A DNA stretch of 58,610 nucleotides, from contig DATKQG010000061.1 in NCBI GenBank assembly GCA_035532835.1, positions 1-58,610 on the forward strand, in the 5' to 3' direction. The DNA is from Candidatus Dormiibacterota bacterium. GTDB lineage: Bacteria; Vulcanimicrobiota; Vulcanimicrobiia; Vulcanimicrobiales; Vulcanimicrobiaceae. This document shows positions 25,044 through 50,858 of this stretch, piece by piece. The translations under genes were made by a program, and so were the position numbers. Every line of letters begins with the position of its first letter. Position 1 is the stretch's first letter. The notes beneath the pieces are model-generated. The model ran no database searches, was not told the origin of the DNA, and saw only the letters and a list, made by a program, of their open reading frames with translations.

Positions 25044-25201
25044 CCCGGTTGCGGGGCGGGACACACCGTTGGGACGGGGACGCGCGCGTTTTTCACATCC
25101 ATGTGAAAAACGCTACTCCGTTCGTCGTCGCTCCCGCCCTCCGGGCTCCGCTCCTCCCTCACAGGCCCCGTGCCAACGGTGTAACCCGCCCCACAACCGG
25201 G
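25044..25201. repeat. Structured intergenic element A: 36-bp outer stem with inner hairpins
   Basis: Outer arms 25044-25079 and 25166-25201 are complementary at 32 of 36 positions. Inside, gcgtttttcacat (25086-25098) and atgtgaaaaacgc (25101-25113) form a perfect 13-bp hairpin, and gccc-tcc-gggc (25136-25146) a smaller one. Read on the minus strand both loops show GGA, and the larger hairpin's core is ACATGGATGT. It fills the gap between cysK and the asparaginase gene. It is not a simple terminator: no U-run follows the outer stem. Possibilities are a non-coding RNA, a MITE-like element or a double-stranded mRNA tail. Confidence 0.7.
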
Positions 25202-48861: not shown

Positions 48862-49557
48862 ATGATCCGAAAGCGAATGCTTTGCGGCCTGGCATGCGCT
48901 GCGGCGCTCCTCTGCGCCTGCGCGCCGCGCTATCCCGACGATCGTCTCGTTTCGATCGTGCAAAAGCTAAAGCCGTCGGTCGTGATGTTGGCGATGCGTC
49001 TGCCCCCCGAGCATGCGAGCGATGCGTACGACGTTTCTTTTGCATCGGGCTCGGTGGTGGCTAGCGGCGCGTGGGGAAGCGACATCCTCACGGTGCGACA
49101 CGCGGTACGCGGCGCATGGCATATGTTCGTGACGGTCGGCAATACCCATAAAGTCCCGGGCAAAGTGATCGCGCTCGATCCCGTCAACGATATCGCACTC
49201 GTGCGTATCGCCCGGCCGAATCTTCCCGTCGTCGCACTCGGTTCGTCGGGCGAATTGGCAACGCAAACCGGTCGCGAGGTCGCGCTGATGGGCTATCCGA
49301 TCCCCGACGAAATCGACGGCGGCCTGCGGACGTCACTCGTGACCGGCACGCTCTCGGCCGTGCGCAAGAATGCGCTCGAGATGTCGCTTGCCGTCGTGCC
49401 GGGCGAGAGCGGCGGCCCCGTGTTTCTTGCCGATACCGGCGAGATCGTCGGCGTCGTTGAAGCCCGCATCGGCGAGGAACCCAGTATCGGCTTCGCGCTA
49501 CCGATCGACGATGCGAAACGTTTCCTGCATCGCTACGACGCACAACACGGCTTCTAG
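48862..49557 (+). CDS. Trypsin-like serine protease lipoprotein
   Basis: A 231-residue protein with a lipoprotein signal (MIRKRMLCGLACAAALLCAC). The catalytic triad is visible as His in LTVRHAVRG, Asp in DPVNDIALVRI and Ser in PGESGGPVF, the order of DegP/trypsin-2 enzymes; no PDZ domain follows. It could act in envelope quality control. It starts directly after the hflX stop, and a large inverted-repeat element begins eight bases after its own stop. Confidence 0.85.
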   Translation: MIRKRMLCGLACAAALLCACAPRYPDDRLVSIVQKLKPSVVMLAMRLPPEHASDAYDVSFASGSVVASGAWGSDILTVRHAVRGAWHMFVTVGNTHKVPGKVIALDPVNDIALVRIARPNLPVVALGSSGELATQTGREVALMGYPIPDEIDGGLRTSLVTGTLSAVRKNALEMSLAVVPGESGGPVFLADTGEIVGVVEARIGEEPSIGFALPIDDAKRFLHRYDAQHGF

Positions 49558-49564
49558 GTGAGGC

Positions 49565-49747
49565 TCACTCGTTAGGGACCGTGGCGGGAGTGGTGCTTGG
49601 GGAAGCTGCGATTTTTTTGGCCCAAACAGGATGTTTGCTTCAAAGCTTCGCTTTGCCAAAAAAACGTAGCAGCGTTGGATTTTACAGGATGTAAAATCCA
49701 ACAGCGGTTCCCCAAGCACCACTCCCGCCACGGTCTCTAACGAGTGA
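49565..49747. repeat. Structured intergenic element B: 40-bp outer stem with nested hairpins
   Basis: Outer arms 49565-49604 and 49708-49747 are complementary at 39 of 40 positions. Within lie a second stem (gctgc/gcagc plus tttttttggc 49612-49621 with gccaaaaaaa 49655-49664) enclosing hairpins caaaca-gga-tgtttg (49623-49637) and caaagc-ttc-gctttg (49641-49655), and then a perfect 13-bp hairpin with loop gga (49674-49702). The element exactly fills the gap between two convergent genes. It may terminate both, but its size and branching go well beyond a terminator. Confidence 0.75.
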
Positions 49748-49751
49748 CGGC

Positions 49752-50858
49752 TTACGGCACCGGCGTCCGTATTGGATGAACGGTCGCCGGCGCGATGAGG
49801 GTGCGGTCGCCGACCCACTGTAACGGCGGGATTTGGAACGCGCGTGCGAGCGCGTTGAGATCGTGCGCGTAGGTGGAACGCAGTTTCGAAAAGCGCTCCC
49901 AGGCTTGGTCGCGGTCGTGAAGCGTAAAGCCGGCGTCGATCAATCGTTCGCAAGCGCGGTCGAACTCGCTACGATCGATGCCCGGAGTGTTCTCCGCGTT
50001 ATCTTGCAGGAAATATTTGGCGAGATCGTGCGCGGCGTGTCGTCCCAGCGTGTAGGTGATTCGCGCTTCGCCGGTTGCGTCGCGGACGGTTGTCGTCAAC
50101 AGCACCGAAGCATCCAACAGCGTTCCCAGGGTGCCGATCCAAGATTCGTAATCGTGGCTCGAGCGAAAATAAGCCAGCGCCGGATACGCGAGGTGGCTCT
50201 CGATAACGCTTGCGATCCAGCGTTGCCCGTCGCGCAACGTGCTTGCCAAATCGTCGCGATTGTTGGCGAAGCCGGCGATCGTGACCATGCCGACGCCGCT
50301 CGGTGGGGAGCCGGCGCGCGCTCCGACCATAACGACGAATTGCTCCCGTGCCTGAAACGTGCCGAACAGCGCAAAGAGATAGGCCGTCGTGATGGAGACC
50401 ACGCCCAAACCGGATGCGCCGGCGCAGAGCGAGACCGCGCGCGCGAGCCCGGAACGCGCGACGATGTCGCCGTAGCCGATGGTCGTGAATGAGACGCCAG
50501 CGTAGTACACCGCCGCCCAGTACGTGTGCAGCGAAGGCCGCATCTGCTCACGCATCGCCCAGAACAAGCCGCCGTAGGCGAAAATCAGGAGCAAAATCCA
50601 AAAGGCCAGCATCAGGACCAGCGTTGCGGGCGCGAAGATGGCGAGCAGATCTTCGCGGTGCTCCTCATCGTTGGGATAGAGTTTCCATGCCAGGCGAGGC
50701 CAGAGCCACCACATCGTTTTCCAAAAGTACGAGCTCAGACGAAAGCGGCGTCCCACGGCGCGCGGCACGATCACCGACTGAAAGACGTCGCTCAACGTCG
50801 CGGCGATCAGAAGGATCGCGGCAAGCGCGATAGCGCCGTTGCTCATCGCTACGAACAT
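49752..50858 (-). CDS. Two-transmembrane-type potassium channel
   Basis: A 368-residue protein with an N-terminal hydrophobic segment (AIALAAILLIAATLSDVFQS), a pore module with helices around TLVLMLAFWILLLIFAYGGL and VSITTAYLFALFGTF, and the selectivity filter TTIGYGD. The cytoplasmic C-terminal 200 residues form a helical domain not recognised as RCK/TrkA_N. It probably conducts K+ across the inner membrane. It is convergent with the protease gene across the structured element. Confidence 0.85.
   Translation of the reverse strand: MFVAMSNGAIALAAILLIAATLSDVFQSVIVPRAVGRRFRLSSYFWKTMWWLWPRLAWKLYPNDEEHREDLLAIFAPATLVLMLAFWILLLIFAYGGLFWAMREQMRPSLHTYWAAVYYAGVSFTTIGYGDIVARSGLARAVSLCAGASGLGVVSITTAYLFALFGTFQAREQFVVMVGARAGSPPSGVGMVTIAGFANNRDDLASTLRDGQRWIASVIESHLAYPALAYFRSSHDYESWIGTLGTLLDASVLLTTTVRDATGEARITYTLGRHAAHDLAKYFLQDNAENTPGIDRSEFDRACERLIDAGFTLHDRDQAWERFSKLRSTYAHDLNALARAFQIPPLQWVGDRTLIAPATVHPIRTPVP

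Follow-up and report, generated by a model that had tools for sequence, protein, structure and literature searches.

We suggest that the long inverted repeat found between two convergent genes of the window (the whole 58.6-kb stretch of DNA analysed here) is, on balance, a copy of a dispersed, occasionally mobile, structured RNA of one Eremiobacterota family, whose arms are probably shaped by template switching and which may act in cis at the 3' end of mRNAs. The outer arms of the window copy (49565-49604 and 49708-49747) are complementary at 39 of 40 positions, the single exception being a G.U wobble on the + strand, and when arms up to 400 bp apart are considered this is the longest and most perfect inverted repeat of the window. 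The + strand folds with a minimum free energy of -137.3 kcal/mol (z = -16.0; 0/200 dinucleotide shuffles reach an equal fold) and the minus strand with -124.7 kcal/mol (z = -13.5). The fold consists of two nested closing stems and three hairpins (P3, P4 and P5; Table 1), and thus reproduces the architecture described in a first-pass annotation of this DNA, namely a near-perfect 40-bp inverted repeat enclosing three hairpins and a second nested stem. The same annotation had the element fitting exactly between two stop codons; it does sit between convergent stops, but with gaps of 7 nt (to the + gene, ending at 49557) and 4 nt (to the - gene, ending at 49752).

Table 1. Coordinates of the element, its parts and related features in the window
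Feature	Position	Strand	Evidence
Whole element, structured RNA	49565..49747	+	Arm pairing, fold, genome copies, covariance-model matches, wobble bias
Left arm, 34 nt, locus-specific half of outer stem P1	49565..49598	+	Copy alignment, mismatch counts, paralog arm comparison
Conserved core, 115 nt	49599..49713	+	Alignment of copies
P2 5' strand (GCTGCG A TTTTTTTGGC)	49605..49621	+	P2: 95.8% of cells paired, both-side changes at 16/16 pairs
P3 hairpin, loop GGA at 49629-49631	49623..49637	+	Fold; GGA in 70/72 copies
P4 hairpin, preceded by CTTC linker	49642..49654	+	Fold, alignment
P2 3' strand	49655..49670	+	Fold, alignment
P5 hairpin, loop GGA at 49687-49689	49672..49705	+	Fold; GGA in 60/72, CGA in 11/72 copies
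Right arm, 34 nt, locus-specific half of outer stem P1	49714..49747	+	Copy alignment, mismatch counts, paralog arm comparison
Left neighbour gene, trypsin-like protease (PF13365)	48862..49557	+	
Right neighbour gene, ion channel (PF07885)	49752..50858	-	
"Element A", apparent diverged relative with a different P2-P4 region, ~10 copies (L044-L053), copy-specific outer arms	25044..25201	-	

The element is repeated many times. A nucleotide search of its own genome (G000; 2.89 Mb in 120 contigs) returned about 9 copies, and at least 30 are present there. A covariance model, R1, gave 40 matches in G000 and 25 in G001, a genome of the same genus; some of these matches are incomplete copies lying at the ends of contigs. 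R1 identified carriers in 26 of 61 genomes of the family, and a second model, R2, in 62 of 148 Eremiobacterota genomes, all in one family among the carriers listed; these larger searches used strict filters and give copy numbers that are lower bounds, and most genomes are metagenome assemblies, a caveat both for copy counts and for the core inversions described below. In public records the motif occurs in Candidatus Eremiobacterota, plus one record labelled Brevundimonas and one other bacterium. No matches were obtained in the phage, plasmid and viral collections searched, and a phage or plasmid origin was rejected on that ground. The cores fall into sub-families, and Element A, a copy of which (G000:C9:41097-41213) matches R1 with E 1.2e-5, appears to be a diverged relative. 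Partial loss was also seen: L107 (G064:C2:49413), the probable ortholog of the intact L118 in G073, has the whole P3 hairpin deleted, and L238 (G130, locus L109) is a remnant with P5 and the right arm only, pointing to partial deletion.

Among the copies of the own genome the inner 115 nt are nearly constant, and the outer 30-40 nt vary, each remaining self-complementary. Within this core of about 115 nt, a closing stem is accompanied by a small hairpin and by two long ones whose loops read GGA. In an alignment of 72 sequences, 93.2% of cells are paired (36-47% in slid controls), two-sided changes number 1362 versus 397 in shuffles, and such covariation is seen at 56 of 57 pairs; the alignments (A3 and A4) were fitted to the model structure, which inflates pair counts within the model and not in the arm parts beyond it. 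Because the alignment was fitted in this way, mismatches in the arms, which lie mostly outside the model, serve as an independent test. Isolated arm mismatches, read on the core (+) strand, are G.U in 46 cases and A.C in 8 (24:3 in the own genome, 14:0 in genus g35 plus L020). Pairing needed at the level of DNA would give equal numbers, and the excess of G.U therefore indicates that the + strand, the one with the GGA loops, is selected as RNA, its pairing being kept with a strand bias. The first-pass annotation had offered selection as RNA or DNA structure as one option, to be abandoned if, among other signs, relatives held neither copies nor covariation; many copies exist, and nearly every pair covaries. 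Its alternative of a double-stranded tail shared by two mRNAs fares worse, a symmetrical tail leaving the strand asymmetry unexplained.

Conservation of the core is also evident at single loci. For many of the G000 copies there is an ortholog in G001, the flanks being about 92% identical. The orthologous cores differ by 0-2 nt per ~110 nt (98-100% identity), and the best paralogs mostly reach 87-98%, so that a core resembles its ortholog more closely than it does almost any paralog. This pattern is explained neither by neutral decay nor by a homogenising of the copies, and the comparison argues firmly that individual cores are under strong conservation at their own loci.

The position of the copies is equally distinctive. 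Of the 25 own-genome copies for which both neighbouring genes were called, 19 are placed between convergent genes, versus 3 of 43 gene junctions in the window, and in most cases no more than ~20 nt separate the end of an arm from the stop codon. An unusually large intrinsic terminator serving both directions would sit between convergent genes and be strongly structured on both strands, as this element is. Such terminators should, however, be followed by a U-tract, which is missing on either side (mean T in 8 nt of 1.2 and 1.7; expected 1.5); moreover, the core is conserved in sequence detail and the pairing bias is strand-specific. We regard this explanation as very improbable, in line with the earlier remark that a terminator needs far less structure. 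At locus L116 of genus g35 (L231, L232 and L233), the signal peptide of the downstream gene seems to begin within the inverted core, which would provide its start codon and opening residues (TTGAAGTCGACATCCTGTCG..., M K S T S C R A R K), in frame in three species.

The outer arms (20-40 bp) behave quite differently from the core: they differ at almost every locus and are self-complementary throughout. Paralogs with cores 96-99% identical show an arm identity of only ~0.40-0.45 in the inner 20 nt and, beyond, values near background (0.27). Arms so dissimilar around nearly identical cores are largely made at the locus, and inheritance of the arms along with the core was rejected. When orthologous arms are compared, changes are mostly mirrored, with 24 transition and 32 transversion pair switches (56 in total) against 10 single wobble changes and 12 broken pairs on one side only (22 in total); two pairs (L085/L122 and L095/L153) have arm indels that inflate the mirrored count, and excluding them leaves 16 transitions and 10 transversions versus 18 one-sided changes. 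The core itself is inverted relative to its flanks in three well-placed orthologous pairs, and also at loci L116 and L117 of genus g35. Homogenisation of arms and inversion of spacers are the published signature of replication template switching (PMC8604942), a process able to create and maintain RNA hairpins (PMC8794818). The mirrored changes together with the core inversions strongly suggest that such switching takes place between the arms. The perfection of the stem had been taken as a hint of recent origin; on the contrary, the orthologous loci of a second species carry the stem, with mirrored arm changes. In the arms of the G000 copies, CTAG is ~14 times commoner than in the window, which near stop codons is partly expected, inside the inner arms less so.

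Ordinary compensatory substitution, with selection alone keeping the arms paired, would likewise agree with the strong G.U bias, itself a mark of selection on pairing. At such divergence, though, one-step G.U intermediates should dominate, and instead most changes are mirrored, pair switches by transversion occur about as often as those by transition, and cores invert. We consider it rather unlikely that substitution of this kind suffices. Template switching would also copy one flank, sometimes coding, as a reverse complement onto the opposite side. Arms often overlap the ends of flanking coding sequences, and where one arm does so the opposite arm must be the copy; at L117/L243, for instance, the last codons of the gene (GATGGTAG) reappear inverted on the other side. 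Similarly, in four G000/G001 pairs (L101, L099, L089 and L088) the empty site holds the outer portion of one arm, which is native sequence. The idea that the native arm is invariably the right one was true of these four and of L109/L215 but was dropped as a general rule: L165 showed no clear native side, L116 is a probable deletion remnant with coding sequence shared with the core end, and at L117 the native flank is opposite unless the core has flipped. The birth of an arm is not cleanly visible in these comparisons, which tells against this part of the proposal: over their innermost 17-27 nt, the arms of the empty-site pairs have no match in either the flank or the donor, and some of the empty sites, L214 and L234, may be what a deletion left behind. 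As for a target-site duplication, possible repeats of 2-3 bp occur at some empty sites, inconsistently among sites.

The dispersal of the copies raises the question of movement. Locus L106 is filled in G064 only and empty in five congeners (G041, G073, G113, G130 and G146), and by parsimony is an insertion, so that at least one recent insertion can be read with confidence from these genomes. A selfish mobile element, of MITE or REP-like type, whose structure serves its own transposition only, would be expected to show many copies, insertion in one lineage with five empty relatives, intergenic location and sub-families of cores, all of which we observe. Such an element should have arms that are shared ends, which these are not; old individual copies are far better conserved than flanking DNA, unexpected for dead copies; and the element is unseen in the phage, plasmid and viral contigs searched. 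Nor was a mobilising enzyme found when reverse transcriptase and Y1 transposase were sought in the main carriers. Reverse transcriptase occurs in 4 of 61 genomes and the Y1 (RAYT) transposase in 2 of 61, both being absent from G000, G001 and the three g35 genomes tested; retrotransposition was rejected for lack of the former in the main carriers, and a RAYT/REPIN system for lack of the latter in the carriers with most copies. A purely selfish nature is accordingly unlikely in our judgement. The MITE suggested by the first-pass annotation is half right: the element is dispersed and multicopy, but the 40-bp arms are specific to each locus and the conserved unit is the 115-nt interior only. One may also imagine a class of mobile RNA that carries just the core, builds its stem at each site by fold-back copying of the flank and is then kept as a functional RNA of the mRNA 3' end, a possibility that we entertain only tentatively.

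Two observations concern other elements at these loci. An IS110-family element (320-aa transposase, PF01548/PF02371) is inserted in the CAGGATG hairpin loop of L016 (G000:C36 start) and of L031, L033 and L042 (G001), so that the GGA hairpin looks like its landing site; the IS110 elements are found in a few interrupted copies only. Locus L117 is filled in two congeners, and L217 (G064) and L245 (G146) instead carry an unrelated long palindrome (CTTTTT..ATGGTTAATCGCTCGG ... CCGAACGATTAAC/CCGAGCGATTAAC).

Taken together, our preferred reading would run as follows. After insertion, the arms would be created and kept perfect by replication template switching between the inverted repeats, as the mirrored changes strongly suggest, and the same process would mirror new mutations and occasionally flip the core. 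The RNA may then act in cis at the 3' end of an mRNA reading into the element, where the long stem could seal, insulate or protect that end between tightly spaced convergent genes, with the GGA-loop core as a candidate docking site for an RNA-binding protein. Against this, the core changes its orientation with respect to the two genes from one species to another, so no single gene can be the one that the element always serves, and the convergent bias weakens outside the own genus. A cis-acting RNA at the 3' ends of packed convergent genes nevertheless seems the most economical reading of its putative function.

With regard to the putative protein partner, both hairpin loops are GGA in most copies, and some copies contain ACAUGGACGU, which we take to be close to the CsrA/RsmE site. 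CsrA would be the obvious candidate binder because of these loops and of the precedent of TwoAYGGAY, an RNA for which CsrA binding has been proposed (PMC4333381). That the RNA acts in trans as a sponge, titrating CsrA with its GGA loops as has been suggested for TwoAYGGAY, would fit with the CsrA encoded by the own genome (G000:C8:10568-10723), with CsrA hits in 50 of 61 searched genomes and with the weak full-length similarity of a few copies to RF01731. Carriage, however, does not track CsrA: carriers are 6 of the 11 genomes without a CsrA hit (some of these 11 being incomplete) and 20 of the 50 with one. Most of the family has a hit, and in genus g9 neither genome does (G009 and G058, both among the 11). 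The distribution of the element being independent of CsrA across genomes, CsrA was rejected as an obligatory partner. Furthermore, the P5 loop is CGA in part of the copies (11/72), and a redundant sponge gives no reason for dozens of loci, with arms that differ from one to the next, to hold their cores at 98-100% identity. Titration of CsrA thus strikes us as improbable.

Template switching is a proposed answer to the unsettled question of how long stems come into being and keep their pairing in the face of random mutation. With dozens of copies per genome in many species, and with orthologous and empty sites, the element offers a large natural series for following how perfect RNA stems originate and are maintained, and is, as the arm comparisons strongly suggest, an apparent natural case of DNA copying that builds and repairs RNA stems. 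For a phylum that has been little studied, it further contributes a widespread RNA family not described before, possibly linked to TwoAYGGAY, itself of unknown function.

No prior description of the element in Eremiobacterota was found in the literature searched, and an Rfam search of the window copy gave nothing meaningful and no RF01731 match. The nearest described relative would be TwoAYGGAY (RF01731; Weinberg et al. 2010, PMC2864571), which is known from human gut, Gammaproteobacteria and Clostridiales. Diverged copies of genus g35 match its covariance model over the full length with 38.2 bits (L109), 35.2 bits (L060 and L115, the same place) and 29.8 bits (L121), below the gathering cut-off of 43. 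The two share a long, poorly conserved outer stem, a branched inner part, GGA hairpin loops and an AAG - hairpin - CGGUU junction. As to the two AYGGAY hairpin loops of that family, AUGGAU/AUGGAC occurs in many g35 copies, and the window copy has CAGGAU in both loops. Our element differs in its extra P3/P4 domain, and dispersal with locus-specific arms is not described for TwoAYGGAY in the literature examined; we take the common outer-stem and GGA-loop character as a lead. GGA hairpin loops are common as well to CsrA-binding RNAs of the CsrB/RsmZ type, which are stand-alone sRNA genes, in contrast to dozens of dispersed copies without CsrA dependence. Like REP/REPIN-RAYT systems and bacterial MITEs, the element is a dispersed intergenic palindrome; unlike the former it has no RAYT in the carriers with most copies, and unlike the latter its terminal repeats are not common to copies and its conserved part is internal. 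It thus appears to be an undescribed many-copy structured RNA of Eremiobacterota that is neither an intrinsic terminator, a REP/RAYT element, a retroelement nor a MITE with shared ends. The closest parallel for its arms lies in the RNA hairpins attributed to template switching (PMC8794818; PMC8604942), which likewise display arm homogenisation, reverse-complement copies of flanks and spacer inversion. Those earlier cases were inferred from the histories of RNA genes, rRNA included, and from yeast coding DNA, whereas here the process would extend to a whole bacterial repeat family, seemingly at every locus.
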